Shown here one piece after another: positions 332 through 14,149 of a stretch of 54,738 nucleotides of DNA. The stretch lies in assembly GCA_017409825.1 (NCBI GenBank), contig JAFQRZ010000032.1, positions 1 to 54,738 on the forward strand. The letters run 5' to 3'. Origin of the DNA: Agathobacter sp. Lineage in GTDB: Bacteria; Bacillota; Clostridia; Lachnospirales; Lachnospiraceae. Below the pieces are notes generated by a model that was given only the letters and a program-made list of their open reading frames with translations, was not told where the DNA came from and made no database searches. The stretch's first letter is position 1. Every line of letters begins with the position of its first letter. Position numbers and translations under genes: made by a program.

Positions 332-1969
332 ATGATTCAAGCTAGCAATATCACATTACGTCTTGGAAAAAAAGCACTTTTCGAAGATGTTAATATCAAA
401 TTTACAGAAGGAAACTGCTACGGCCTTATCGGTGCCAACGGAGCAGGTAAATCTACATTTTTAAAAATCATGTCAGGACAGTTAGAACCTACCAATGGTG
501 ATATCATCATCACACCTGGTCAGCGTTTATCATTCTTACAGCAGGACCACTTCAAATATGATGAATATCCTGTATTAGATACCGTTATCATGGGTAACAA
601 ACGTCTCTATGACATCATGAAAGAAAAAGATGCTATCTACATGAAGGAAGATTTCACTGACGAAGACGGCATCCGTGCCAGTGAATTGGAAGCCGAATTT
701 GCAGAAATGGATGGCTGGAATGCAGAATCCGATGCTGCTACTCTCTTAAATGGTCTTGGCATCGAAACAGAATATCATTATACACTTATGGCAGATATGC
801 CAGGTGCGCTTAAGGTTAAGGTTCTCTTAGCACAGGCATTGTTTGGTAATCCAGACATTCTTCTCCTCGACGAACCTACCAACCACTTGGATTTGGATGC
901 TATCGCTTGGTTAGAAGAATTCTTAATCAACTTTGAAAATACCGTAGTTGTTGTATCACATGACCGTTACTTCTTAAACAAGGTATGTACTCATATCGCA
1001 GATATGGACTATGGCAAAATCCAGCTTTATGCTGGAAACTATGATTTCTGGTACGAATCCAGCCAGTTACTGGTTCGCCAGATGAAAGAAGCGAACAAGA
1101 AAAAGGAAGAAAAAATCAAAGAATTACAGGAATTTATTTCACGATTCTCTGCAAATGCTTCGAAATCAAAACAGGCAACTTCTCGTAAACGTGCCTTAGA
1201 AAAAATCCAGCTCGATGAAATTAAACCATCCAGCCGTAAATACCCATACATCGATTTCCGTCCACAGCGCGACATCGGTAACGAAGTTCTTACTGTAGAA
1301 GGCATTTCCAAAACCATCGATGGTGTAAAAGTATTAGATAACATTTCTTTCGTTGTAGGACGCGAAGACAAAATCGCTTTTGTAGGTGGTAATGAACTTG
1401 CAAAAACAACCTTCTTCAAAATCCTTGCAGGCGAAATGGAACCAGACGAAGGTTCTTACAAATGGGGAATCACAACCAGCCAGGCTTACTTCCCTAAGGA
1501 CAATACCGAAATCTTCGATACAGATGAACTTATCGTAGACTGGTTGACTGGTTACTCTGAAATCAAAGATGCTACTTATGTACGTGGATTCTTAGGACGT
1601 ATGCTTTTCGCAGGCGAAGATGGCGTTAAGAAAATGCGTGTACTTTCCGGTGGTGAAAAGGTACGTGTACTGCTCTCTCGTATGATGATTCAGGCAGCAA
1701 ACGTTCTTATGTTTGACGAACCTACCGACCACTTGGATATGGAATCTATCACAGCTTTAAACAACGGTATGATGAAATTCTCTGGAGTCATCCTCTTCTC
1801 TTGTCGTGACCACCAGGTAGTTCAGACCACCGCAAACCGTATCATCGAATTCCTTCCAGACGGAAGCTTCATCGATAAGATGACCACATACGACGAATAT
1901 CTCGAAAGTGATGTTATGGCTCGTAAACGTACGGTATATAATGTAAATTTAGATGAAGATAATGAATAA
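332..1969 (+). CDS. ABC-F family ATPase (YkpA/YbiT-like)
   Basis: Soluble protein of 545 residues with two ABC ATPase domains in one chain and no membrane segments, typical of ABC-F translation factors that act on the ribosome. Domain 1 has Walker A GANGAGKST (34-42) and Walker B with DEPTNHLD (180-187). Its signature motif reads MPGALK (156-161) instead of LSGGQ. A charged linker (about 250-300) joins it to domain 2. There Walker A is degenerate, GGNELAKTT (353-361), but the signature LSGGEK (439-444) and DEPTDHLD (463-470) are intact. From memory of the family, a relaxed second Walker A is common in YkpA-type members; the weak first signature is more unusual. ATG with GGAGGA nine bases upstream. 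Single gene with its own promoter and terminator. It does not look like a specific antibiotic-resistance ABC-F, but that cannot be excluded. Confidence 0.9.
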   Translation: MIQASNITLRLGKKALFEDVNIKFTEGNCYGLIGANGAGKSTFLKIMSGQLEPTNGDIIITPGQRLSFLQQDHFKYDEYPVLDTVIMGNKRLYDIMKEKDAIYMKEDFTDEDGIRASELEAEFAEMDGWNAESDAATLLNGLGIETEYHYTLMADMPGALKVKVLLAQALFGNPDILLLDEPTNHLDLDAIAWLEEFLINFENTVVVVSHDRYFLNKVCTHIADMDYGKIQLYAGNYDFWYESSQLLVRQMKEANKKKEEKIKELQEFISRFSANASKSKQATSRKRALEKIQLDEIKPSSRKYPYIDFRPQRDIGNEVLTVEGISKTIDGVKVLDNISFVVGREDKIAFVGGNELAKTTFFKILAGEMEPDEGSYKWGITTSQAYFPKDNTEIFDTDELIVDWLTGYSEIKDATYVRGFLGRMLFAGEDGVKKMRVLSGGEKVRVLLSRMMIQAANVLMFDEPTDHLDMESITALNNGMMKFSGVILFSCRDHQVVQTTANRIIEFLPDGSFIDKMTTYDEYLESDVMARKRTVYNVNLDEDNE

Positions 1970-2206: not shown

Positions 2207-2374
2207 TTATAGGATCTCCCTGGCGATAGTTTTCAAGCCATCCTCATGGATTGTAATTTCACTTTTACTCTGAAATACAAACATATATATCATTAATAAC
2301 ATAATTGAGAGAACTAAGATTCCTAATATTATCAGTGGTCTCCTATTTTTACATCCCATCCCTTTAATCTCCAT
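2207..2374 (-). CDS. Small single-pass membrane protein, last gene of Dlt-like operon
   Basis: A 55-residue protein with a positively charged N-terminus (CKNRR) followed by one hydrophobic helix (about 13-34) and a short polar tail. Its ATG overlaps the stop of the SGNH gene as TGATG, which suggests coupled translation. A second in-frame ATG five codons later, preceded by GGAG, is an alternative start (2359). Some dlt operons carry a tiny membrane protein (DltX) that helps the transfer complex; this one is at the other end of the operon and shows no clear DltX motif. The role is therefore inferred only from position. Confidence 0.6.
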   Translation of the reverse strand: MEIKGMGCKNRRPLIILGILVLSIMLLMIYMFVFQSKSEITIHEDGLKTIAREIL

Positions 2375-3333
2375 CAAAACTTCATACCACAATTTTTCAA
2401 ATCTTCGTTCCATGAACTATAGATTTCATCCTGACGATGATCAGTCAAATCAAAATTATCCTTTAAGTAAGAACCAAAATATGCCGTAAGCTTCTTTGCA
2501 CCTGTAAAATTCAAATGATCTCCACCATCTCTGGTATCCTTGGCCCAGTCAATCTGAATCTCATTGACATTTAAATTCATATCCAGATACTTTACGTCAT
2601 TTTCGTCAGCCCAATCACTAACAGAATTGTGTTTTGCATAAGTCCAGTTATCTGGAGCTGGAGTTGTTACCAATACAAGTTCTATGTCCTGTTTTTTGCA
2701 CAGCTCATAAATCTTAGTCAAATATTCCTCTGCTTTCTCTCCAAATGCTTTTCGTTTGTCACTTTCATTCATCCATTCACCGCCAGTATATGGAACCACA
2801 TCTGTTCGAAGCTTAAACCCTTTTCTCAAATGCTCTTTTTCCAGTTTTTTCTGTTCCGTTGGATTCATCACAGAAAATGCCTGTTTCCAACGATTATGAT
2901 ATTTGAACACTGGCAGATACTGCGACACCTCATACAACGTACGGTCTGACAGTTCTGGTTTTACACCTGCGTAGCGAAACAAACAGTTTGTTTCCAAAAC
3001 AACAAGTTCTGGTGACTGTGTTTCTAAACTAGTTTCTAAAATGCTAAGAGTATCACATAACCTTTGTGCGTGCGTTCCACACACATAAGATGTAATCCCC
3101 TGTTCCTTCCACATCTGCAAAGGATTAAATGCAGAATACGTTTCACTATCACCTATAATAATTACATCAATGGTATCCTTTGCTTCTTTGGAAAAGTAAC
3201 TCGTCTTTTTCTCTACATCAATAATATTATATACTTCGCCACGAGGGGTCATCAAAGCAGATAATAAAATCAGAATCAAAACTAATCCAGAAAGGAATAT
3301 TGTACCGCCTGCTATTTTCTTTACTCTATCCAT
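2374..3333 (-). CDS. SGNH-fold membrane-anchored protein, DltD-like position
   Basis: Protein of 319 residues with an N-terminal membrane anchor (about 9-29) and an extracytoplasmic SGNH/GDSL-like domain. The catalytic-type serine is in GDSE (61-64) and a C-terminal Asp-His pair is in DGGDHLNFTG (about 272-273). Such proteins are the usual partners of MBOAT acyltransferases (DltD, AlgX/PatB-type) and complete the transfer of an acyl group to a surface polymer. Start: an upstream in-frame ATG at 3357 overlaps the MBOAT gene, but the ATG at 3333 has AGAGGAAG at ideal distance (3336-3343), so I chose 3333. It lies 10 bp after the MBOAT stop and overlaps the next gene by one base. Substrate unknown. 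Confidence 0.8.
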   Translation of the reverse strand: MDRVKKIAGGTIFLSGLVLILILLSALMTPRGEVYNIIDVEKKTSYFSKEAKDTIDVIIIGDSETYSAFNPLQMWKEQGITSYVCGTHAQRLCDTLSILETSLETQSPELVVLETNCLFRYAGVKPELSDRTLYEVSQYLPVFKYHNRWKQAFSVMNPTEQKKLEKEHLRKGFKLRTDVVPYTGGEWMNESDKRKAFGEKAEEYLTKIYELCKKQDIELVLVTTPAPDNWTYAKHNSVSDWADENDVKYLDMNLNVNEIQIDWAKDTRDGGDHLNFTGAKKLTAYFGSYLKDNFDLTDHRQDEIYSSWNEDLKNCGMKF

Positions 3334-3343
3334 AACTTCCTCT

Positions 3344-4894
3344 CTAATATCCTGCATATATCATTTCTACAATCGAATAGCCTGTACCATACGCCCCGAG
3401 CATGATTACTGCAAGAATTGCTGCATACCACATGCCCCAGCGTACAGGAAGTACCCATTTAGCGATTTCTTCACGAATTTTGGTTTCCCGCTCATGAAGA
3501 CTACCTACAATCGCAACCACTACAATTCCAATTGCCACAACTACCAAATCTGCGACATCCATTTTCAAAGAAGATAACTTTCCTAGTAATTCACTGATAT
3601 GAAAATCTGTTACGATTTTCCCAAGCATGGCAAAACCATCCTGTAAGGTATTGGCACGGAAAAACAGCTCGCCGATATTGATGATAAAAAACATCTTTAT
3701 CGCCTGGAACATTCGGTATCCGCTACTCTCTCGGTTAATATTCCACTTTTGGGCAAGTTTTTGTACTGGTTCCTCTGTTATATTCTCAATAAAAATTAGC
3801 ACAAAATAGTACATACCATAGAAAATAAAGGTCCAGTTGGCACCATGCCATAATCCGTTGCAAGACCACACACCAAAAAGTGCTATCGTTGGTCCGACAA
3901 ACTTGCTCACATTTCTGCCTAACTTCTCTTTTACTTTTTTCGCAAGATTTTTTACTGGTTTTGCAAGCGAAATCGAATAGAAGATATAATCCTTAAAAAA
4001 TGTACCTAAGGTAATATGCCACCTTCTCCAAAACTCCGATGCATCTTTCGCTGCAAATGGCTGGCGGAAATTCTCAGGAAGCTTCACCCCAAAGATTTCA
4101 CCACTTGCAATAATAATATCCATACATCCAGAAAATTCCATATAAAGCTGTACGGTATAACATACCACACCAAATGCAATCACGGAGCCATCCAAATCGC
4201 GATAATTATCAAACACATGTGAAACCGTCGCATATAACCTGTCCGCAATTACGATTTTCTTAAAAAGGCCCCATACAATTCTCTGATATCCAAACTTCAA
4301 ATTCTCGAACGTAATACTTCTTCCTGCATACAGTTCTTCCCCTACCTGTGCATATCGGCAGATTGGCCCTTCCATAATCGTTGGGAAAAAGCTTAAATAC
4401 AGTGCAATTTTCAGCAAATTGTGCTCTGCCTTCTGCGTTCCTCGATACACATCTGTGATATACGAAATCATCTGTAGGGTATAAAACGAAATGCCGATTG
4501 GTACCATAAAGCGGATTGGTTCATACACAAAATTCACCTGGAACAAAGCCAGCACATCTGCTACTGTTTGTCCAAAGAAATTGAAATATTTTAAAACGCC
4601 CAGAATACCAAGGCTTATTGCAATTCCAAACACAAGCACCTTGCGTTTTTTCATAATAAGTGCTTTGCCTTCCACTTCAGCCGTAAGCGACACATTTTCC
4701 AGCCAAAGACCTATGTAATGGGTAAAAATTGTGCTAAAAAGCATATATACCACTAATGGTCCACTAATCATATAAAAAAAGGCATAATTCGCCATCAAAA
4801 GTGCCACAGGTCTAAATCTCTGTGGCACAAGCTGATATATTATCAATACGACTGGAAGGAAAAAAGCAAAATAATCCATCAAATGATAAGACAT
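3344..4894 (-). CDS. MBOAT family membrane O-acyltransferase, DltB-like
   Basis: Protein of 516 residues with about a dozen hydrophobic segments. It carries the MBOAT features: FWRRWHITL (around H293) and the invariant histidine in NGLWHGANW (H350). In D-alanylation DltB moves the aminoacyl group from the carrier protein across the membrane. The position here, directly after an acyl carrier protein gene and before an SGNH gene, fits the same job. The start ATG lies one base after the carrier stop, with AGAGGAG upstream. The acyl group need not be D-alanine, because a decarboxylase belongs to the same operon. Confidence 0.9.
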   Translation of the reverse strand: MSYHLMDYFAFFLPVVLIIYQLVPQRFRPVALLMANYAFFYMISGPLVVYMLFSTIFTHYIGLWLENVSLTAEVEGKALIMKKRKVLVFGIAISLGILGVLKYFNFFGQTVADVLALFQVNFVYEPIRFMVPIGISFYTLQMISYITDVYRGTQKAEHNLLKIALYLSFFPTIMEGPICRYAQVGEELYAGRSITFENLKFGYQRIVWGLFKKIVIADRLYATVSHVFDNYRDLDGSVIAFGVVCYTVQLYMEFSGCMDIIIASGEIFGVKLPENFRQPFAAKDASEFWRRWHITLGTFFKDYIFYSISLAKPVKNLAKKVKEKLGRNVSKFVGPTIALFGVWSCNGLWHGANWTFIFYGMYYFVLIFIENITEEPVQKLAQKWNINRESSGYRMFQAIKMFFIINIGELFFRANTLQDGFAMLGKIVTDFHISELLGKLSSLKMDVADLVVVAIGIVVVAIVGSLHERETKIREEIAKWVLPVRWGMWYAAILAVIMLGAYGTGYSIVEMIYAGY

Positions 4895-4895
4895 T

Positions 4896-5126
4896 TTATG
4901 CTTCTCCTCTGAGTCTTAAAATCATATTCCAAAGGCTTTCTGCGGAATTAAAATTCTCTGGAATTAATTCTGCTGGAAGCACTTCAATATCAAATGCATC
5001 TTCAATCTCTGATACCAAAGAAAGAATGCTAAATGAATCCAAAATATGGTCATCAATCAAAGTTGTACAATTTTCATAATCTACTCCTGGCTGGATTTCT
5101 TCTAAAATTTCAAGTAATTCGTTCAT
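4896..5126 (-). CDS. Acyl/aminoacyl carrier protein, DltC-like
   Basis: A 76-residue acidic, helical protein of carrier-protein length. The phosphopantetheine attachment site reads DHILDSFSIL with S31; the usual Leu after Ser is Phe. It would carry the amino acid loaded by the adenylation enzyme (6302-7825), present it to the PLP decarboxylase, and then pass it to the MBOAT protein. The gene begins 4 bp after the decarboxylase stop and ends one base before the MBOAT start. Confidence 0.88.
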   Translation of the reverse strand: MNELLEILEEIQPGVDYENCTTLIDDHILDSFSILSLVSEIEDAFDIEVLPAELIPENFNSAESLWNMILRLRGEA

Positions 5127-5130
5127 AATT

Positions 5131-6312
5131 TTATCTCCTTGTTGTGTTAAATATATTTGTCGCTATCAGTTCTCTAACAACTGTGAAACCATTCTCTTTT
5201 TCGTAAAACATAATCTGTGGAAGCTCGCGACTCAAAAACAATGCCATACCTTCCGTTACGGAATATGCACCACAGGTTTCAAATACAATACAATCGCCTT
5301 TAGACAAGCTTGGCAACATAGCTCCCTTGGTGATTACATCATTTACCGTACATAATGAACCACAAATCGTCCACGGAAGTACGTCCTCTTCTTTTTCGTT
5401 TTCTGAAATATACACCATCCATGGGACCTTCATTCCCATCATCTGACCATAATAGTTCAACTGATGAATCCCTCCATCCACAATGGCATAATTCACACCA
5501 TTCGAATGCTTGACATCCATCACACGAGTCATATAATAGCCGCAATCGGATGCCAAGAAACGTCCCATCTCTATGGTAATATTTTCAAACTCTGTCACTT
5601 TGTCTAACTGCTCTTTCAGATCTTTTACCTGTTCTTCTGCATCCAGCGAAGTTTCTCCTTGGAAATATGTCACAGACAAACCTGGACCATATTCCAATTC
5701 TTTAAGTGTAACTCCATAGGTTTCTTTGATATGTACAGCATATTCCTGTAAAAGTGCAAGCTCTTTTTCCACTTTCTTTGGTTTTTTCTGCGTTCCAGAA
5801 TAATAATGAATGCCTTCTAGTGTCATATTTGCATCAGCAACCACCTGCAATAACACTTTTTCAAAGCATTCCTTATCCATACCAAACTGATTGCCACTCG
5901 AAAGACGAATCAAAACCTTAATCTGTGTTTCCTGCAACTTACAAACCTCTGATAAAATACGGAAATGTTCTTCCGATTCTATCGTAAAAATTCCCTCGCC
6001 CTTGCTCAACTCCATAATACGCTGCATGCTGGCAAAGGTTTTGTTTACACCTGAAACCACAATCTTAGAAGGTGCAATACCCTGACGATGACAAATTTCA
6101 TACTCTCCTGGTGAACAAACCTCATACTTTTCCGTATAAGCATCCATCGCTCCTACCAAAAATGGATTCGCTTTCATGGCATAACATACGGTGGCCCTAT
6201 CTTTTAAAATAGATTGTGCAAGTACCATACGCTCTTTCAGCTTATCCAAATCAAATACATAAGATGGCGTTGCATGTTCCTTCCAAGCTGCTTTCATTAC
6301 ACTATACTCCAT
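5131..6312 (-). CDS. PLP-dependent fold-III decarboxylase (DAP/ornithine decarboxylase family)
   Basis: Protein of 393 residues with an alanine-racemase-fold barrel. The PLP lysine is in YAMKANP (K47), followed by the EMGR loop (248-251), the catalytic-type cysteine in CGSLCTVNDV (C321) and ETCGAYS (345-351). Cys plus the GAY motif point to a decarboxylase rather than a racemase. Starts with ATG at 6312 with GGAGG six bases upstream, overlapping the end of the adenylation gene by 11 bp; ends 4 bp before the carrier protein. This placement recalls BtrK of butirosin synthesis, a family member that decarboxylates glutamyl bound to a carrier protein. Action on a carrier-bound amino acid is therefore my inference. 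A free diamino-acid decarboxylase is the main alternative. Confidence 0.82.
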   Translation of the reverse strand: MEYSVMKAAWKEHATPSYVFDLDKLKERMVLAQSILKDRATVCYAMKANPFLVGAMDAYTEKYEVCSPGEYEICHRQGIAPSKIVVSGVNKTFASMQRIMELSKGEGIFTIESEEHFRILSEVCKLQETQIKVLIRLSSGNQFGMDKECFEKVLLQVVADANMTLEGIHYYSGTQKKPKKVEKELALLQEYAVHIKETYGVTLKELEYGPGLSVTYFQGETSLDAEEQVKDLKEQLDKVTEFENITIEMGRFLASDCGYYMTRVMDVKHSNGVNYAIVDGGIHQLNYYGQMMGMKVPWMVYISENEKEEDVLPWTICGSLCTVNDVITKGAMLPSLSKGDCIVFETCGAYSVTEGMALFLSRELPQIMFYEKENGFTVVRELIATNIFNTTRR

Positions 6313-7825
6313 GCTTGCCTCCGTTCTGGTACAGCTCTTTCAAATGATTTCGGTCAATCTTACCATTTTTCGTCAGAGGCATTTCATCTACCTGCAAGAA
6401 GACATTTGGCACCATAAACTCTGGCACCTTGGTCTTCATATCGTCAATGATACCTCGTTTATCATCGTCTCCCACATAAAACGCAACTACCTTATTCTTC
6501 TTTTCATCAAAGAATGTGCATGCACGTTCTATTCCACAAAGGCTGTTCAAAACGGTATCAATTTCTTCCAATTCAATACGGTGTCCCATATGCTTAATCT
6601 GGAAATCTTTTCGTCCAGCAAAATACATCTGACCATCTTCACTATAATGAGCCAAATCACCTGTGCGATAAATCAATTCCGGATAATATAGGTTCAATGG
6701 ATTTTGAGTAAATGCTTTTCCTGTCATTTCTGGATTATTGTAATATCCCAAGGCTAATGCAGTTCCCGCTACGCAAACCTCTCCTGACTTACCACTTTCG
6801 GTAACCTCTTTATCCTCTTCATCCAAAAGGAATACTCTTTCATTTGGGAAAGGAACTCCCATTGGCAATTTTTCTTCTTCTGAATATTCTCTATCTACAA
6901 TATAATAGGTACAGTTGCACGTAATCTCTGTCGGTCCATATAAATTCACAAACATCGCATTTGGATAATGACTTCTCCACTGATTCAACTGCTTGATTGG
7001 CATCATCTCCCCACTAAACATAATTTTGTTTATCGCAGATGGCACCTTATATTTCAATCCATGCAGACGATTCAACATGCATAATGCAGACACCGCCCAA
7101 ATCAATGTCGTCACCTGATTATCCTCTAACATATCTACCACGTTATTTGGGAACATGAAATACGCTTTAGGGATAATCACAAGTGTCGCACCTGTTTTCA
7201 AGCAAGAATATATATCCTTTACAGAAACATCAAAGTCAAACGGCGCTTGATTTCCGATGACATCTTTCTCTGTAATTCCAAAAATCTCTGTAAAGCACTC
7301 AATAAAATCAATAACCGAACGATGGCAAATTACAACACCCTTTGGCACACCTGTAGAACCTGATGTAAAAATGCCATACAACGGATCAGTATCTAAGCTC
7401 TGCTCACGAATCTTTGCAAGAAGCTGTGTATCTTCCTCATCCTTCATCTGTGCGTATTCTACTATCACGCCTTTATAGTCTACTTCTGCTAATTTTTCTC
7501 TATATTCTGGCTTGGTAATCACCATCTCTGGCTCTAATACACTTAAAATCTGAGTAATTCTCTGTAACGGAAAACTTGGATCTACAAGTACATAAAAATC
7601 ACCTGCAAATACAATTCCCATAAATATCTGTAATGTCTCTACACTCTTTTCCATAAAAACCACAACGGGTCTACGCAAAGGCACATGTTTTGCCACATAA
7701 GTACCAATCTGGCGAGCTTTACTACGCAATTCTTCATAGGTACACTGTTTTTTTTCATCCTTTGCAGCAATCTTATTTGGAAAACGAATAGCGGCATTGT
7801 CAAGATACTCTAACACATTTTTCAT
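6302..7825 (-). CDS. Amino acid adenylation enzyme, DltA-like
   Basis: Protein of 507 residues with all adenylation motifs: A3 FTSGSTGVPKG (153-163), A5 NLYGPTE (294-300), A7 YRTGDL (386-391), A8 GRKDFQIKHMGHR (404-416) and the C-terminal lysine in TKNGKID (K489). It would activate an amino acid with ATP and load it on the carrier encoded at 4896. Overall it resembles DltA. However, the pocket stretch reads FDFDVSVKD, with K203 where I recall Met in DltA, and IMFSGE, with S271 where DltA has the Cys linked to D-alanine selectivity. The substrate may therefore differ. Start: ATG at 7825 with GAGGA eight bases upstream; an upstream TTG at 7861 has no such site. First gene of the operon. Confidence 0.88.
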   Translation of the reverse strand: MKNVLEYLDNAAIRFPNKIAAKDEKKQCTYEELRSKARQIGTYVAKHVPLRRPVVVFMEKSVETLQIFMGIVFAGDFYVLVDPSFPLQRITQILSVLEPEMVITKPEYREKLAEVDYKGVIVEYAQMKDEEDTQLLAKIREQSLDTDPLYGIFTSGSTGVPKGVVICHRSVIDFIECFTEIFGITEKDVIGNQAPFDFDVSVKDIYSCLKTGATLVIIPKAYFMFPNNVVDMLEDNQVTTLIWAVSALCMLNRLHGLKYKVPSAINKIMFSGEMMPIKQLNQWRSHYPNAMFVNLYGPTEITCNCTYYIVDREYSEEEKLPMGVPFPNERVFLLDEEDKEVTESGKSGEVCVAGTALALGYYNNPEMTGKAFTQNPLNLYYPELIYRTGDLAHYSEDGQMYFAGRKDFQIKHMGHRIELEEIDTVLNSLCGIERACTFFDEKKNKVVAFYVGDDDKRGIIDDMKTKVPEFMVPNVFLQVDEMPLTKNGKIDRNHLKELYQNGGKHGV

Positions 7826-7867
7826 CTCAACATCCTCATTTCCATATTTAGTATCACACAAATAAGA

Positions 7868-7896
7868 ATTTTATCATGTATACCACTATATAGCAA
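7868..7896 (-). promoter_or_regulatory. Promoter of the Dlt-like operon
   Basis: On the minus strand a -35 TTGCTA (7891-7896), a 17-bp spacer and a -10 TAAAAT (7868-7873) lie 43 bp before the adenylation gene start. No other promoter is seen before the small membrane protein at the end, so the operon is probably one transcript. Confidence 0.6.
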
Positions 7897-7965
7897 TACT
7901 TAGTAATAATATTAAGACAATCTTAAGGTAACTGTAAAATTTCCTATCTCACTTCTTACAATTTC

Positions 7966-7997
7966 AAAAAAGAGTTTGCATAAGCAAACTCTTTTTT
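7966..7997 (-). terminator. Intrinsic terminator after the FliD-like gene
   Basis: A perfect 14-bp stem, AAAAAAGAGTTTGC (7966-7979) with its complement (7984-7997) and a four-base loop. On the minus strand it ends in a T-run, 34 bp past the stop of the FliD-like gene. It closes the long minus-strand chain from 13158. Confidence 0.85.
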
Positions 7998-8031
7998 GAT
8001 TTCTTTATTCTTTTATTAAATGATTCTATTA

Positions 8032-9258
8032 TCAGATGATTCCATCAAAAATACTTCCGGTATTATGGTTATTCCCATAAGTTGCATCATCTGTATAGGT
8101 ATTTGCTTTATTCGCTTCGGTCTCTGCCTGATTTGCTACCATGGTAGCTTTTAAGGTAGCCTGATATGCAAATGAACCCGTTCCTACAAATAAGGATTTC
8201 ACCTCTTTCATATCGGAATTCAAGAAACTTTCTTCATCAAAGTTCAAGGTTCCATCTTCTTTGTCCACGGTAATTCCAATTTCTGCCAAATCCTTCTTGT
8301 ATGCATCCGTGATACCTTCCAAGGTCTTCATCGCACTTTCCACACCAGAGCTCTTGGTATTTTCAGCCGCGATAACCAAGTCATTATAATCCTTGATAAA
8401 CGCACTGATTTCTTCTACAATTTCATTGGTATTATATTCACCGTTAAAATTCTTATCAAACAAATCTCGGTTTCGGTAAAGATCTGAACCTGTCGCAATC
8501 AAATCATCTGCTCGTTCTTTGATTTTCGCAATCGTATTAGCGGTATCTTTTGATGTACTAGACGTAGTTTCACTCTTACTTGATTTATATGCACTGCCAG
8601 AAGACACCTTATCTTCTACCATGCTATATACACGAGATGCTTTCGCTCCTACCTGATATGCAAAGGAACCCACACCACTAAACATACTCTTTACATCTGA
8701 GATGTTAGATTTCATAAATTTTTCTTTATCAATAGAAAGAGTAAAATCTGCACCACTGACAGAAATCCCAAGCTTCGACAACATATCAATATTATTTGAT
8801 GTCGCATTAACGATATTTCCACCAGCTTTTGCGATACTTTCGGTTTCTGCTAAACCTACGCTACCAATCATCGCATTATAATCTTCAATGAACGCATTTA
8901 CTTTCTCATAAATCGCATCCATATCATATTCTCCATTCGCATTCTGAGCGAATAATCCTTTGGCCGAATATAATGCCGCTGCACTATCCTTCAAATCATC
9001 GGATGCCGTCTTGATACTGCGAATCGTTGCATCGGTATCATTCGTGTCATTCTTTGACTTTCTATCCTTTGTAGATTCTTCTTCATCTAACGCGTAATAT
9101 GACTTCATCAATTTTCCGTAAGAGCCATTTTTGATGCTGGCATAATCATTTAGATTAATCCCCATCACTCCATTGGAAGACGAACTCGAAGCACTTGTTC
9201 CCATACTTGAAAACAATGAGTTAATCGAATTGGAATCAAAACCATTAATTGTTGACAT
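8032..9258 (-). CDS. FliD C-terminal-like protein with two repeated domains
   Basis: Protein of 408 residues built from two related units of roughly 130 residues. Each unit has an N(A/F)NGEY stretch, a FI(E/K)DYN helix and a VGTGSFAYQ-like end. Compare GVGSFAYQVGAKA (about 195-207) with GTGSFAYQATLKA near 370. The units resemble the C-terminal region of the flagellar cap protein FliD, but the cap-specific N-terminal part is missing. The N-terminus is Ser/Asn rich and there is no signal peptide. ATG with AAAGGAGC upstream. It follows ung by 30 bp and ends the operon. A role in flagellar or surface structure is inferred from similarity only. Confidence 0.65.
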   Translation of the reverse strand: MSTINGFDSNSINSLFSSMGTSASSSSSNGVMGINLNDYASIKNGSYGKLMKSYYALDEEESTKDRKSKNDTNDTDATIRSIKTASDDLKDSAAALYSAKGLFAQNANGEYDMDAIYEKVNAFIEDYNAMIGSVGLAETESIAKAGGNIVNATSNNIDMLSKLGISVSGADFTLSIDKEKFMKSNISDVKSMFSGVGSFAYQVGAKASRVYSMVEDKVSSGSAYKSSKSETTSSTSKDTANTIAKIKERADDLIATGSDLYRNRDLFDKNFNGEYNTNEIVEEISAFIKDYNDLVIAAENTKSSGVESAMKTLEGITDAYKKDLAEIGITVDKEDGTLNFDEESFLNSDMKEVKSLFVGTGSFAYQATLKATMVANQAETEANKANTYTDDATYGNNHNTGSIFDGII

Positions 9259-9288
9259 AACATCGCTCCTTTCTACGTATCTATTCCT

Positions 9289-9966
9289 TTAGATATCCTG
9301 AATCTGCCAGTCAATCGCTTCCAATCCATTGGAAGTCAAGAAGTCATTCGTCTGGCTGAAATGTTTACATCCGAAAAATCCACGATATGCCGAAAGTGGA
9401 CTTGGATGAGGTGCTTTTAATATCAAATGCTTTGGATTATCAAGCATTGCAATCTTACTCTGTGCCGGTCTTCCCCAAAGAAGGTACACCACCGGTCTGT
9501 CAATTTTGTTTACTTCACGAATAATCGCATCTGTAAACTGCTCCCACCCCTTATTCTGGTGAGAATTCGCCTGATGTGCACGCACCGTAAGCACGGTATT
9601 GAGCATCAGTACCCCCTGCTTCGCCCATTTTTCCAAATAACCGTTGTTTGGAATCTTGCATCCCAAATCGGATTCCAGCTCTTTGTAGATATTCTGTAAA
9701 GAAGGCGGAATCTCTGGCTGTGATGGCAAAACAGAAAAACACAAGCCATGCGCCTGATTTACATTGTGATATGGATCCTGCCCCAAGATAACGACTTTTA
9801 CTTCACTAAGCGGCGTATAATGCAAAGCATTAAAGATATCCTCTGCCGGTGGGTAAATGGTCGTCTTTGCGTATTCTTCTCTTACAAAATTATATAATTC
9901 TCTATAATAGGGCTTTTTGAACTCGCCTTCCAAGGCTTTTGCCCAATCATTGGTAAGCATTGCCAT
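9289..9966 (-). CDS. ung: Uracil-DNA glycosylase
   Basis: Family 1 UDG of 225 residues, the usual length. It removes uracil from DNA to start base excision repair. The water-activating motif GQDPYH (62-67, D64) and the DNA-contact loop HPSPLS (about 187-192) are both present, as are the PPS loop and the uracil-binding LLWG strand. The ATG at 9966 is preceded by a purine-rich AAGAAGAAAG. It lies 24 bp after hisF in the same direction and 30 bp before the FliD-like gene, so all are probably co-transcribed. Confidence 0.97.
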   Translation of the reverse strand: MAMLTNDWAKALEGEFKKPYYRELYNFVREEYAKTTIYPPAEDIFNALHYTPLSEVKVVILGQDPYHNVNQAHGLCFSVLPSQPEIPPSLQNIYKELESDLGCKIPNNGYLEKWAKQGVLMLNTVLTVRAHQANSHQNKGWEQFTDAIIREVNKIDRPVVYLLWGRPAQSKIAMLDNPKHLILKAPHPSPLSAYRGFFGCKHFSQTNDFLTSNGLEAIDWQIQDI

Positions 9967-9990
9967 ATCTTTCTTCTTTCTATATCGGCA

Positions 9991-10752
9991 TTATCTTCGA
10001 ACAGATACACCCCGTTCGGCCAGATATTTTTTTAAATCCATAATTTCTAATTCTTTAAAGTGGAATAAAGATGCTGCCAAAGCTGCATCTGCACAACCTT
10101 CGGTAAGTGCATCATAAAAATGTTCCTTCGTCCCAGCTCCTCCGGAAGCAATGACCGGAATTGAAACATTCTGTGAGATCAAACGGGTGAGCTCAATATC
10201 ATAGCCAGCCTTCGTACCATCACAATCCATGCTAGTAAGCAGAATTTCTCCTGCTCCCATTTTATCCGCCTTCATCGCCCATTCAATCGCATCCAAACCG
10301 GTATCGATTCGTCCGCCATTTTTGTACACATTCCAACCACTTCCATCTTCACGACGACGTGCATCAATGGCAACTACCACACACTGGCTTCCAAAACGAT
10401 CTGCCGCATTGCTGATAAGCTCTGGCGTATTAATCGCAGAGGAGTTAATCGAAATCTTATCTGCCCCCTCTCGAAGCAAGACCTTGAAATCCTCTACGGT
10501 ACGGATTCCGCCACCAACCGTAAACGGAATGAACACCTTTTCCGCCACACGACGCACCATATCCACTACTGTTCCACGGTTATCCGATGATGCCGTAATA
10601 TCCAAAAACACCAGCTCATCTGCACCTGCTTTATCATAAGCAGCCGCAATTTCCACAGGGTCTCCAGCATCTATTAAATTCACGAAATTCACGCCTTTTA
10701 CTACGCGTCCACCATTCACATCCAGACAAGGGATAATTCTCTTGGTAAACAT
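9991..10752 (-). CDS. hisF: Imidazole glycerol phosphate synthase cyclase subunit
   Basis: TIM-barrel protein of 253 residues that, with HisH, makes imidazole glycerol phosphate and AICAR in histidine synthesis. It begins [12 protein letters not shown] with the catalytic Asp, and has the second catalytic Asp region (SMDCDGTK) and phosphate-binding GG motifs. An open frame extends upstream to 10770, but the ATG at 10752 has GGGAGG at good distance and matches the family N-terminus. It is one base after the hisH stop. No other his genes are in the window; only the HisF-HisH pair is here, inside an operon of unrelated genes. Confidence 0.97.
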
Positions 10753-10753
10753 A

Positions 10754-11371
10754 CTATCGACCTCCCTCAATCTGTGTAAAATTCTTTAAAATCGCAAGTC
10801 CTACCTCGCTGCTCTTCTCTGGATGGAACTGGCATGCAAATACATTGTCCTTTTCTACCGAAGCATGGATACAGGTACTATAGTCACAGGTAGCTTTGAC
10901 AATGGACTCATCTGTTGCCTTCAAATAATAAGAATGCACGAAATACACATAAGGGTTCTGCTTCATTCCTTGGAACAAACGTCCATCATTCTGCAAATCC
11001 AATGAATTCCATCCAATATGAGGAATCTTAAGCCCCTCTTTATCTGGGATTCGAAGAATCTGTCCATCCAAAATATGTAGTCCTTCCACACCCTGGCTTT
11101 CATCACTGCCTTCAAACAAAAGCTGAAGACCAAGACAGATTCCTAAAAATGGTTTCTTCTCATCAACCACCTCGCGGATCACCTTGTGAAGCTCATACTT
11201 TTTCAACTGCTCCATCGCTTCCCCAAAAGCACCTACTCCTGGCAAAATCACATGTTCCGCAGACATGATAGTACGAAAATCTCTCGTAATCACACTTTCC
11301 TGCCCCACTGCCGCAAGTGCCTTTTCTACACTTTTCAAATTTCCCGCGTTGTAATCAATTATTGCTACCAT
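10754..11371 (-). CDS. hisH: Imidazole glycerol phosphate synthase glutaminase subunit
   Basis: Class I glutamine amidotransferase of 205 residues that feeds ammonia to HisF. The nucleophile cysteine is in GICLGLQ (C79), and the His-Glu pair is in FHPEKS near the C-terminus. I chose the ATG at 11371 ([10 protein letters not shown]), which overlaps the stop of the upstream gene as TAATG, a coupling arrangement; a TTG three codons earlier is possible. The next gene hisF starts one base after its stop. Confidence 0.96.
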
Positions 11372-13158
11372 TATTCCCAATTAATTCCTAGTTCTGTTAA
11401 TTTCTTGTATAAAGCGATTGTATAATCATCTCTATCTCGAATAGTATACATTTCAATCGCCTCTTCGTATGTCATGCCATATTTCTGTTCTAACTCATTG
11501 GAAACAGTTCTCTTTAACGTTTCCAACTGACCCAAACATCCATAGACATCTGCATTTTCTTCGTTGATATAACATCTTCCTGCCGCGCAAATCAAAGAAT
11601 CAAATGCCCAATCTTCTACTTCCGCTTTCGTAAATGCATTGTATGAATTCAACTCACTATCTATTGTCGATAACACAGCAAGTCGATTATAGAGTTCCAT
11701 ATCTTTTTCTTTGATTTCCAGACCACTTAATTCAGCAAAAGCTTCTGCGTAATGGCCCTGATTCTGTAAACTCTTTGCATTTGAAATCGGAGTATTATAT
11801 TTGATTAAATTCACACCCAACAACACCAATGCAACCATCGATGCTGCCATTATCCAAATCATAAAAACTGGTCCCTTTGGAAGCGGTGGTGTATTGTCCA
11901 CTTCTTTTGGTTTCTTTTCTTTCTTTGGCTTTGGTGCTTTCGGCGCCTTTGGCTTCTTAGGTGCTTTTTCCTTCTTTGGTTTCTTTTCTTTTTTCTTCTT
12001 TTCCTTCTTAGAAGGTTTTTCTTCCAAAGCATCCAATTCTGCTAAAATATCTGCATTCTCACCAGATAATGCCTCTGCTGTAGGATTTTTCGCAGGTTTC
12101 AGTGCAACCTCATCATCCTCGTCATCTTTCATAAGATTTCCAAGGATATCCTTCAGTTTACCAATGAGACCTCCTTTTTTGTCCTTTTTGTCTTTCTTTT
12201 CATCGGAAACATCTTCCACAGCTGGTTCTGCAGAAATCTGCTGTGCAGACATCTCATTTTCCGCGAAAATCGTAAATGCATCCAATTCATCTAGCGGAAT
12301 CTCAGTTGCTTCACTTTGGGAAAGCATATTTCCAATATCTTCCAAATCGTCAGCCCCGGCTAAAAGATTCATCAAATCATCTTCGCCCAAATTGCCCAAA
12401 TCAATGCCTTCGGAATCATTCTGCACCGGAACACTTTCTGCTAAATTCAGTCCGTCTTCCCCACCAAATAAGTCTTCAAACACATCCACAGGCATCTGTT
12501 CCAACGGAAGGTCATCCATTGGTACCTCTTCCATTGGTACCTCTTCCATCGGAGGTGCTTCTTCTAACACCGGCGGCTCTGGAATCTCATCTGCTCCAAC
12601 TCCCGCCATCACATCTGCTGCCGCATCTACCAACGAAGCCAAATCTACATCACCTAGCATAAAGCCATCTTCCTCGCCTGCTTCAAATGCTTCATGTGCA
12701 GCATAAATATCTTCTTGTTCTAGTTTATCTTCTGGTGTAATCTCTTGTTCTAACGGTTCTTCTGAACCAAATGACGCAAATAAATCCGCAAAGTCGTCAT
12801 CTCCTCCTGCCAATTCCGCTTCAAATTCCCTTAAGAAATCTGCTTCTGACTTAGAAACACGGCGCGAATACATCGGATTCGTGTCTGGTTTACGTTTATT
12901 CATCCCAAACTCTGTATTTTGCGCACTAGACAACAATGCATCTAAGATATCTTCCTGCTGAGATCTCGTTGCTGGCTTTGAAACAGGTGGCATATGAGAT
13001 ACATCCTGAAAATTCAAATCATCTTCTTTCAAATCCCAAAAGCTCATGGCATCGTTCAGCATCTTCGCTGTTTCTTTGAATTTATCTTTTCTAACTTTTT
13101 CATCATTCACAGAATTTAATAACTTATCCAGATAAGCTTCTGCCGGCATCTTTCCCAT
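11371..13158 (-). CDS. Acidic, lysine-rich single-pass membrane protein of unknown function
   Basis: Protein of 595 residues with no family I recognise. Residues 1-60 are a charged helical region. About 60-330 is strongly acidic and disordered, with PMEEV-type repeats near 205-225. A Lys/Pro-rich block (about 375-420) precedes one membrane helix (432-453). The C-terminal 140 residues are helical with a TPR-like look and three cysteines. The start ATG at 13158 has CGGAGA upstream. It lies between cheV and hisH, both in the same direction, and overlaps hisH by one base. A -10 TATAAT (13179-13184) lies just upstream, so it may have its own promoter. The layout suggests a cytoplasmic N-terminus and extracytoplasmic C-domain. 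Confidence 0.75.
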   Translation of the reverse strand: MGKMPAEAYLDKLLNSVNDEKVRKDKFKETAKMLNDAMSFWDLKEDDLNFQDVSHMPPVSKPATRSQQEDILDALLSSAQNTEFGMNKRKPDTNPMYSRRVSKSEADFLREFEAELAGGDDDFADLFASFGSEEPLEQEITPEDKLEQEDIYAAHEAFEAGEEDGFMLGDVDLASLVDAAADVMAGVGADEIPEPPVLEEAPPMEEVPMEEVPMDDLPLEQMPVDVFEDLFGGEDGLNLAESVPVQNDSEGIDLGNLGEDDLMNLLAGADDLEDIGNMLSQSEATEIPLDELDAFTIFAENEMSAQQISAEPAVEDVSDEKKDKKDKKGGLIGKLKDILGNLMKDDEDDEVALKPAKNPTAEALSGENADILAELDALEEKPSKKEKKKKEKKPKKEKAPKKPKAPKAPKPKKEKKPKEVDNTPPLPKGPVFMIWIMAASMVALVLLGVNLIKYNTPISNAKSLQNQGHYAEAFAELSGLEIKEKDMELYNRLAVLSTIDSELNSYNAFTKAEVEDWAFDSLICAAGRCYINEENADVYGCLGQLETLKRTVSNELEQKYGMTYEEAIEMYTIRDRDDYTIALYKKLTELGINWE

Positions 13159-13196
13159 ACTGTTTCTCCGTAAAAAAAATTATAATAAATGTCATA

Positions 13197-13226
13197 AAGG
13201 GATGTGACAGTTTCATCACATCCCTT
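13197..13226 (-). terminator. Hairpin after cheV
   Basis: An 11-bp perfect stem (13197-13207 with 13216-13226) lies 18 bp past the cheV stop. The T-run on the minus side is short (CCCTTTATG), so termination may be partial and some transcripts may continue into the 595-residue protein gene. Confidence 0.55.
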
Positions 13227-13243
13227 AATTTTCAAAAACTAAA

Positions 13244-14149
13244 TTAGATTCCTGATTCAGCAATCAAACGGTCAATTGCATCAACCAGCATTCCGATTTC
13301 AGGTTTTGTCAACTGTGCGTCTGCTCCAAGCTGTTCCCCTTTACGTCTCATTTCTTCATTTACGAGTGATGAGAAAATAACAAGTGGAATCTTCTTAATT
13401 GTATCATCGGACTTGCAAAGCTTTGTAAGACGATGTCCATCCATCTGTGGCATTTCAATATCTGTGATAATACACTGTACACCACCAATCAAGGTGCCAT
13501 TCTTCTTCATTTCACAAATCTTATCCCATGCTTCCTGTCCATTATTGGTAACAATCAAATCCTGATATCCAGCCTTCTTCAAGCAGTCTGTGATAAGTTT
13601 GCTAAGAAGTGGTGAATCCTCTGCAATAAGAATACGAGAATCACTTCTGTCTCTTGCCTGAAGATTATCAATATCTGCAGTACGAAGTCCAGTTTCTGGA
13701 CTGATGCTAGAAACGATTGATTCAAAGTCTAAGATAACCACAAGTCTGTCGTTCATCTTAATTACACCAGTAGAAACACTTCCATTCTCACCATTAATCG
13801 TAGAATCAGGCTTAATAATCTCTTCCCAAGAAACTCTGTGAATACCAATTACCTGGTCAACATGGAACGCAACATTTAATTTATTGAAGTTCGTAATAAT
13901 GAATAATCCATCTACTTCTGGATCAGGCATACCAAGACATCTTCTAAGATTAATTACCGTAATCATTACATCACGTGGCATAAAAATTCCTTCTACACTT
14001 GGATGTGCGTTAGGAACCGGTGTCACCTGTGAATATTGTAAAATTTCTTTAATCTTAGCAACGTTGATACCATAATGGTTATCTCCTAATGCAAATTCAA
14101 GTATCTCCAGTTCGTTTGTCCCAGACTCTAATAAAATATTAGTATCCAT
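13244..14149 (-). CDS. cheV: Chemotaxis protein CheV (CheW-receiver fusion)
   Basis: Protein of 301 residues. Residues about 13-150 form a CheW-like coupling domain, which joins receptors to the CheA kinase. Residues about 172-298 form a response receiver with LIAEDSP (acidic pocket), the phosphorylated Asp in ITDIEMPQMDG (D230) and the KP pair near 281. CheV adapts receptor arrays. It has a strong GGGAGGG site and its own extended -10 promoter. It shows that the organism is chemotactic and fits the sigma-28 promoter, FliD-like protein and chemoreceptor elsewhere in the window. Confidence 0.95.
   Translation of the reverse strand: MDTNILLESGTNELEILEFALGDNHYGINVAKIKEILQYSQVTPVPNAHPSVEGIFMPRDVMITVINLRRCLGMPDPEVDGLFIITNFNKLNVAFHVDQVIGIHRVSWEEIIKPDSTINGENGSVSTGVIKMNDRLVVILDFESIVSSISPETGLRTADIDNLQARDRSDSRILIAEDSPLLSKLITDCLKKAGYQDLIVTNNGQEAWDKICEMKKNGTLIGGVQCIITDIEMPQMDGHRLTKLCKSDDTIKKIPLVIFSSLVNEEMRRKGEQLGADAQLTKPEIGMLVDAIDRLIAESGI

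Follow-up and report, generated by a model that had tools for sequence, protein, structure and literature searches.

What does an amino acid decarboxylase do in the middle of an operon that otherwise resembles the one for D-alanylation of the cell envelope? The question is raised by a locus of Agathobacter sp. (Lachnospiraceae; assembly GCA_017409825.1, contig JAFQRZ010000032.1), of which a stretch of 54,738 nt, here called the window, was analysed. From position 7825 down to 2207, the listing of open reading frames (ORFs) places six of them on the minus strand, encoding an adenylation enzyme (A), a fold-III pyridoxal phosphate (PLP) decarboxylase (DC), a carrier protein (CP), an MBOAT acyltransferase, an SGNH-like protein, and a tiny membrane protein. 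The first five, in the order A–DC–CP–MBOAT–SGNH, constitute a conserved and widespread system, carried for example by the non-pathogenic relatives Lacrimispora aerotolerans DSM 5434 (L153) and Schaedlerella arabinosiphila DSM 106076 (L123). It is probable that they form a carrier-fed pathway for decorating the envelope, in which an amino acid is decarboxylated on the carrier and then transferred to an envelope polymer.

A gene set conserved around the decarboxylase

Two sets of loci were compared. The family set contains 59 loci (L040–L098), leaving out the weakest match (genome G103, 26% identity) and the second DC locus of genome G090. The named set contains 80 loci (L100–L179), the best 80 of at least 569 relatives from named-species genomes, and all counts given for it refer to these best 80. 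The two sets overlap, so their counts are not independent. Homologues of DC occur in 61 of 299 sampled family genomes (E ≤ 1e-20, own genome and a few weak matches included) and in 4 of 398 sampled phylum genomes (E ≤ 1e-45, own genome included), and a canonical DltA lies over its cut-off in 8 of the 299. By their titles, the named loci come from many Lachnospiraceae, and also from Oscillospiraceae/Ruminococcaceae, Erysipelotrichaceae, and others.

All five parts, in any order and with the genes of A, CP, MBOAT, and SGNH no more than 6.5 kb away from that of DC, are present at 42 of the 59 family loci and 62 of the 80 named loci. The exact order of the window recurs in 47 of the 80 (window excluded), and with these two counts of the named set the gene set is not a product of chance. 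A CP gene lies near the DC gene at 56/59 family and 72/80 named loci, and its relatives and their gene neighbourhoods support the view that the BtrK-like DC belongs to the set as a rule. The Dlt-like loading and transfer logic that a preliminary description had read into this DNA is supported as well.

Residues behind the predicted loading, decarboxylation, and export

A lies above the cut-off of TIGR01733 (317.4), and its top match in the PDB is LgrA. The DltA models score it with 326–337 bits, below cut-off; the DltA equivalog TIGR01734 is missed with 326.2 bits against 559.85. Mapped by motif to the numbering of GrsA, using what we take to be the GrsA motifs, the pocket reads D235, V236, K239, I278, W279, M299, S301, L322, C330, N331, and K517. 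The corresponding reference residues of GrsA include D235, A236, A301, I330, and C331 (PMC11253843). Among 77 rows (76 named loci and the window), D235 and V236 are found in 76, with one gap, and K239, W279, S301, C330, N331, and K517 in all 77. In the family set including the window, position 239 is Lys in 52/56 rows and Arg in 4/56, hence basic in 56/56 (one row, L056, belongs to another A clade), and the window code is common to 51/56. A second DC-linked class of A, found in L059, L067, L069, and L070, has the pocket IARGWCSQASK, with Arg239 and Ser301 and without Asp235, and the gene order A–CP–DC. A phylogeny was made of 70 A domains, comprising the window, a random draw of 22 out of the 50 remaining DC-class family rows, and other groups; one branch (support 98/92) has both DC-associated codes on the same side. 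On that side, 28 of 32 rows are DC-associated, among them L191, whose DC gene lies on a different contig of its genome.

A basic residue at position 239 is also a feature of A domains that take alpha-Glu or activate acidic amino acids through the side chain. Eight DltA-type control loci (L203–L210; six exceed the cut-off of TIGR01734, and two fall slightly short of it) read DL(M/F)V..CT in 8/8. Leu198 and Cys269 of the D-Ala pocket of DltA, which by our own mapping presumably correspond to positions 236 and 301, are kept in all eight controls, and the window A has Val and Ser at these sites. Among beta-amino-acid A domains, VinN carries Phe at 236 and Ser at 301, and TycA has been engineered with A236V (PMC11253843). 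The VinN-type combination of D235, a bulky residue at 236, and Ser301 is matched in the window A by D, V, and S, with Val being smaller than the Phe of VinN. Such a pocket probably takes an acidic amino acid.

In the case of DC, a profile of 32 homologues (A3) run against the PDB places BtrK (2j66, 205 bits) above SbnH (6knh, 179 bits) and the diaminopimelate (DAP) decarboxylases, which reach at most 172 bits (2p3e); 6knh was scored as SbnH, and PMC7857480 names 6knk as SbnH. Lys47 is invariant in 59/59 and 32/32 rows. The catalytic Cys is present in 58 of 59 rows, with one gap, and is followed by Thr in 53, Ser in 5, and a gap in 1; the Cys-Thr pair also occurs in the aligned BtrK and SbnH. 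According to PMC7857480, BtrK decarboxylates a glutamyl group held by the carrier BtrI to 4-aminobutyryl, and BtrK, SbnH, FigC, AcsE, and MccE group in a single clade together with the DAP decarboxylases and have conjugated amino acids as substrates. As a separate observation, a decarboxylase, a hydrophobic helix, surface immunoglobulin-like repeats, and a transglutaminase-like domain are united at one locus in a single ORF (L056:6213-9557), which may be a true fusion or an artefact of assembly.

The assignment of CP is the weakest of the calls and is based on the size of the protein, its place, and an invariant serine. In NCBIfam it has only matches below cut-off, to DltC (29 bits, cut-off 68) and AmcB. 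The Ser31 of its LDS motif is invariant in 74/74 rows of the named set alignment.

The MBOAT protein exceeds the PF03062 cut-off of 27 and lies below that of the DltB equivalog TIGR04091 (137.7 bits, cut-off 375); the His350 of its WHG motif is found in 68/70 rows of the named set alignment. In DltX and PatA, the acyl group is carried on the Tyr of a C-terminal FXYXXF hexapeptide (PMC12148441), and the window MBOAT ends in MIYAGY, which resembles it. A widened pattern at the very end, [FILMPVQE].Y..[FYI], which was set after the tails had been viewed, finds Tyr fourth from the end in 45/45 family and 67/67 named full-length MBOATs near DC; the strict form F.Y..F is found in 20/45 and 33/67, respectively. 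The tail Tyr occurs in 0/8 DltA-type control loci. The role of DltX is predicted to fall to the C-terminus of the MBOAT itself, and on sequence grounds the system appears to be a hybrid, with a carrier as in Dlt and a putative fused shuttle as in PatA.

The last conserved protein is termed SGNH-like by its GDS and GDH motifs, the PF13472 matches of its homologues, and its gene context. The motifs G61-D62-S63 and G271/H273 are invariant in 31/31 rows of its alignment (A2), and PF13472 (GDSL) matches 20 of the 31 homologues at E ≤ 0.5 (best 1.5e-5); the A2 profile run against the PDB gives nothing below E 0.17. The tiny membrane ORF behind it had been counted as part of the system in the preliminary description and was considered as an analogue of DltX. 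That candidate is ruled out, as its C-terminal tail contains no Tyr and no homologue was found: BLAST at E ≤ 1 against the ORFs (at least 40 aa) of 181 other loci returns only itself. A small hydrophobic ORF lies just behind the SGNH gene at 7 of 112 other loci with an SGNH match, none alike by eye. Unmatched in 181 loci, the tiny ORF is therefore left out of the system. No DltX-like ORF is seen in the operon, the only part of the genome searched for one.

The proposed pathway and its alternatives

From the gene content, the gene order, the conserved residues, and the relationships of the proteins, we infer the reactions, the amino acid, and the acceptor as follows. A would adenylate an acidic amino acid and load it onto Ser31 of CP; the carboxyl activated is probably that of the side chain (beta in Asp, gamma in Glu). 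DC would strip the alpha-carboxyl from the group on CP, leaving an omega-aminoacyl thioester, which would be beta-alanyl in the case of Asp and 4-aminobutyryl in the case of Glu. The MBOAT, by means of His350, would shift the omega-aminoacyl group from CP across the membrane to its own Tyr513. Finally, the SGNH-like protein (Ser63/His273) would take the group from Tyr to Ser and esterify a surface polymer, possibly of the lipoteichoic type, thereby adding a free amine. Loading before decarboxylation has precedents in VinN/VinL/VinO (PMC11284099) and in BtrI/BtrK. As to the group transferred, beta-alanyl is a tentative first choice, 4-aminobutyryl, the example given in the preliminary description, is a possible candidate close behind it, and another acyl group is unlikely.

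Several observations weigh against this pathway or against single steps of it. At 18/80 named and 17/59 family loci, the neighbourhood of DC lacks one or more of the other four parts, and only some of these loci are at contig ends; in L043, L054, and L055, for example, A–DC–CP stands amid housekeeping genes without an MBOAT nearby. At L056, the DC adjoins an A of another class, outside the DC-associated branch, and the tree that defines this branch is midpoint-rooted and comes with long-branch warnings. Four operons (L193, L195, L199, and L215, among 41 further, hand-picked A loci) have the window A code without DC. Lys239 also occurs in DC-free sister operons (the DAK class, including L182 of the same genome), so this residue is not specific to decarboxylated substrates. 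The pocket loop of A has the standard length, with no gap relative to LgrA, and carries C330/N331, unlike the shortened loop and K330/R331 of VinN; the VinN-type beta-Asp code is therefore present only in part. CP has no Pfam family, and the PF00550 model missed it in a whole-genome scan; likewise, the window SGNH-like protein has no Pfam match above cut-off. The tail MIYAGY deviates from FXYXXF at both outer positions. Furthermore, the tail Tyr is also found in 24/24 loci that lack DC, are not of the DltA type, and have their MBOAT tail complete, which makes the fused shuttle a trait of a wider group and not of the DC operons alone.

One rival explanation reverses the first two steps, with free Asp or Glu as the substrate of DC and the resulting beta-alanine or gamma-aminobutyric acid (GABA) loaded onto CP by A. 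IdnL3 decarboxylates free beta-glutamate ahead of loading (PMC11284099), and beta-alanine or GABA from another source might serve the four operons that have the window A code but no DC. However, the closest solved relative of DC, BtrK, acts on a carrier-bound substrate, and the invariant basic residue of the A pocket is hard to explain without a second carboxylate; decarboxylation first is accordingly judged distinctly unlikely. It is far less probable that DC is an enzyme of the DAP decarboxylase kind, so that a lysyl group derived from DAP is made and is loaded or transferred. The lysA model TIGR01048 does match DC (167.6 bits, E 3.2e-49), but below its cut-off of 297.9. In lysine/ornithine, arginine, and DAP decarboxylases, the acid beside Cys binds the side-chain amine, and an Arg of DAP decarboxylase binds the carboxylate of DAP (PMC7857480). 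A separate LysA-like protein encoded on contig C23 of the same genome (279 bits, just under the same cut-off; 19% identical to DC) has Cys-Glu and an RPAMY specificity helix, whereas DC has Cys-Thr and no Arg in that helix, which makes a free diamino acid an unlikely substrate. The residues thus argue against the possibility, raised in the preliminary description, that DC acts only on free diamino acids; with a LysA-like gene present elsewhere, DC was also rejected as the LysA of this genome. The least probable proposal is that a D-amino acid is supplied, as for D-alanylation, by the fold-III enzyme working as a racemase or epimerase. It can draw on a match to Ala_racemase_N (35.9 bits), against which stand the match to the decarboxylase C-terminal domain, the conserved catalytic Cys, and the PDB search, where alanine racemase reaches 22 bits compared with 205 for BtrK.

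A further alternative concerns only the acceptor and is compatible with the pathway up to the loading of Tyr513: the group may be placed on capsule, exopolysaccharide, peptidoglycan, or a secreted small molecule. MBOAT–SGNH pairs with the C-terminal motif modify peptidoglycan, and the same is expected for alginate, cellulose, and secondary wall polysaccharides (PMC12148441). The genes next to the loci do not name the acceptor: the scanned representatives of their clusters are mostly housekeeping or regulatory, and no polymer-synthesis gene is frequent among them. On the other side, a neighbour cluster found at 5 of 139 loci has as its one scanned member an LTA-synthase-like (lipoteichoic acid synthase-like) sulfatase, and response-regulator and kinase genes occur together near 22 of 139 loci, an arrangement that recalls the regulation of Dlt. 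Five sulfatase-family genes exist in the genome, and none of these three observations proves the acceptor. An acceptor outside the teichoic type is considered somewhat unlikely on this balance, and the preferred reading remains on-carrier decarboxylation followed by transfer to an envelope polymer.

The four DC-free rows with the window code are scattered in the A tree, which looks like loss of DC. In two of these operons, formyltransferase-family genes (PF00551) adjoin A and CP (L193:9322-10188 and L195:2-850); no such gene is seen in L199 and L215. A weaker relative lies at L067:13798-14733. LgrA, for comparison, formylates its carrier-bound amino acid. The pattern suggests tailoring of the carrier-bound amino acid as a shared principle, a lead and not a result. 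The chances are even that the locus represents a third MBOAT–SGNH architecture, carrier-fed like Dlt and with an MBOAT-fused acyl-Tyr shuttle like PatA, in which a tailoring slot before export would be occupied by decarboxylation (DC) or perhaps by N-formylation (the two DC-free operons), and that envelopes of gut Clostridia bear beta-alanyl, 4-aminobutyryl, or formyl-aminoacyl groups.

The genome has eight MBOAT genes in all. L182 (G000:C9:18001-36000) contains at 5025-13289 a second Dlt-like operon, without a decarboxylase, which encodes a protein with a transglutaminase-like region, a CP, an MBOAT ending FIYNQF, an SGNH protein, a small possible lipoprotein, an A with the pocket DAKSWFVLGIK, and a gamma-glutamyltranspeptidase (PF01019). 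Relatives of its transglutaminase-like region occur in L190, in L047, and in 12/12 loci sampled from those that have a DAKC or DAKS code and no DC. Another MBOAT, in L099 (G000:C2:14001-33000) at 9407-10846, ends FLYFRF, and no A gene was matched in that stretch; the one carrier match in its vicinity (PF00550) is about 2.5 kb away on the opposite strand, beside what are presumably fatty-acid genes. This MBOAT may be of the acyl-CoA type.

Locus layout and comparison with known systems

The ORF positions and spacings, the latter read from the sequence, agree with the six tight minus-strand ORFs, with overlaps of 1–11 bp or gaps of at most 10 bp, given in the preliminary description (Table 1). 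A and DC overlap by 11 bp (6302–6312), and DC and CP are separated by 4 bp and CP and MBOAT by 1 bp. The spacing between MBOAT and SGNH is 10 bp if SGNH starts at the ATG at 3333; an alternative upstream ATG at 3357 produces an overlap. The stop codon of SGNH and the ATG of the tiny ORF (2374) overlap by 1 bp. Scans of the window for promoters and terminators stay at the level of shuffled sequence (22 vs 23.1 and 3 vs 2.8, respectively).

Table 1. Positions of the operon genes and of their key residues in the window
Feature	Position	Strand	Basis
A, stand-alone, 507 aa	6302..7825	-	TIGR01733, 344.6 bits
Codon of A pocket Lys203 (= position 239)	7217..7219	-	Residue alignment
DC, BtrK-like, 393 aa	5131..6312	-	PF02784 and PF00278; BtrK top PDB match
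Codons of DC Cys321 and Thr322	5347..5352	-	Cys-Thr as in BtrK and 6knh
Codon of DC Lys47, predicted PLP Schiff-base lysine	6172..6174	-	Invariant; role by homology
CP, 76 aa, DltC-like size	4896..5126	-	DltC/AmcB matches below cut-off; LDS serine
Codon of CP Ser31, predicted phosphopantetheine site	5034..5036	-	S31 in 74/74; role from carrier-protein family
MBOAT acyltransferase, 516 aa	3344..4894	-	PF03062, 57.5 bits
MIYAGY at the C-terminus of MBOAT, with Tyr513 as predicted acyl-Tyr shuttle	3347..3364	-	Homologue tails
GDS/SGNH-like protein, 319 aa, N-terminal hydrophobic stretch, presumed MBOAT partner	2374..3333	-	Invariant motifs
Tiny single-helix membrane ORF, 55 aa	2207..2374	-	1-bp overlap with SGNH stop; no conserved part of the system

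Around the operon, a short candidate ORF (about 40 codons, rich in Asn and Asp) follows at approximately 2041–2160 on the minus strand. Beyond the operon end, on the opposite strand, lies a gene for an ABC-F family ATPase (332–1969, plus strand; NF011646, 670.6 bits, cut-off 762). Upstream, at 8032–9258 on the minus strand, a protein with similarity to the FliD C-terminus (PF07195) is encoded, and a 16-pair hairpin (7964–7999) is situated between this gene and the operon; the terminator count of the scan that gave it does not exceed shuffle level.

Each half of the system is known, as is the trio of A, carrier, and PLP decarboxylase of antibiotic pathways. Among the titles and abstract openings of the open-licence literature searched, no description was found of this trio coupled to an MBOAT–SGNH exporter, nor any known amine esters in such bacteria. 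The preliminary remark that no described system was known with this composition holds, within these searches, for the coupling, and not for the trio, which has precedents in VinN/VinL/VinO and BtrI/BtrK. D-alanylation is the textbook Gram-positive route to positive surface charge. If the pathway is correct, esters of beta-alanine or GABA give a common group of gut bacteria a new, chemically distinct route to such charge; this could matter for how these bacteria withstand antimicrobial peptides of the host, and for beta-alanine or GABA released from envelopes in the gut. The pathway would also break the pattern of fused-shuttle MBOAT–SGNH systems that have no carrier and are fed by acyl-CoA, as outlined in PMC12148441. 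The mechanism is testable with five proteins.

The exosortase-A-associated models TIGR03098 and TIGR03099 give DC its best NCBIfam match (176 bits), and A scores 202 bits with TIGR03098; their cut-offs (478 and 592) are far above these values. The gene context of the exosortase-A-associated ligase and decarboxylase genes also differs. With butirosin biosynthesis, the window shares its closest solved decarboxylase, in a route from a carrier-bound glutamyl to a 4-aminobutyryl group; BtrI/BtrK, however, serve the making of an antibiotic and have no MBOAT or SGNH. Moreover, BtrJ, the loading enzyme of butirosin, is not an A domain. VinN/VinL/VinO of vicenistatin and FlvN of fluvirucin share the combination of A, a stand-alone CP, and a PLP decarboxylase; in 3-methylaspartyl-VinL, the amino acid loses its carboxyl while bound to the carrier, and FlvN recognises Asp (PMC11284099). 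Those proteins feed a polyketide synthase in natural-product pathways, and the short loop and K330/R331 of VinN are absent from the window A.

PatA/PatB-type pairs have in common with the window an MBOAT with a C-terminal Tyr hexapeptide and an SGNH protein. PMC12148441 describes the non-Dlt MBOAT–SGNH pathways as having no carrier protein, a motif fused to the MBOAT, and evidently an acyl-CoA donor, whereas the window operon has genes for a carrier and a loading enzyme. With both a carrier and a putative fused shuttle, systems like that of the window show an arrangement outside the pattern described there. The Dlt system (DltA-DltB-DltC-DltD and DltX) shares the adenylation enzyme, the small carrier, the MBOAT, the SGNH-type protein, and the outward transfer of an amine-bearing acyl group. 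Compared with Dlt, the window misses the equivalog cut-offs of DltA, DltB, and DltC, has the A pocket DVK..S..CN in place of DLMV..CTVA, and adds a BtrK-like decarboxylase and a Tyr hexapeptide on the MBOAT itself.

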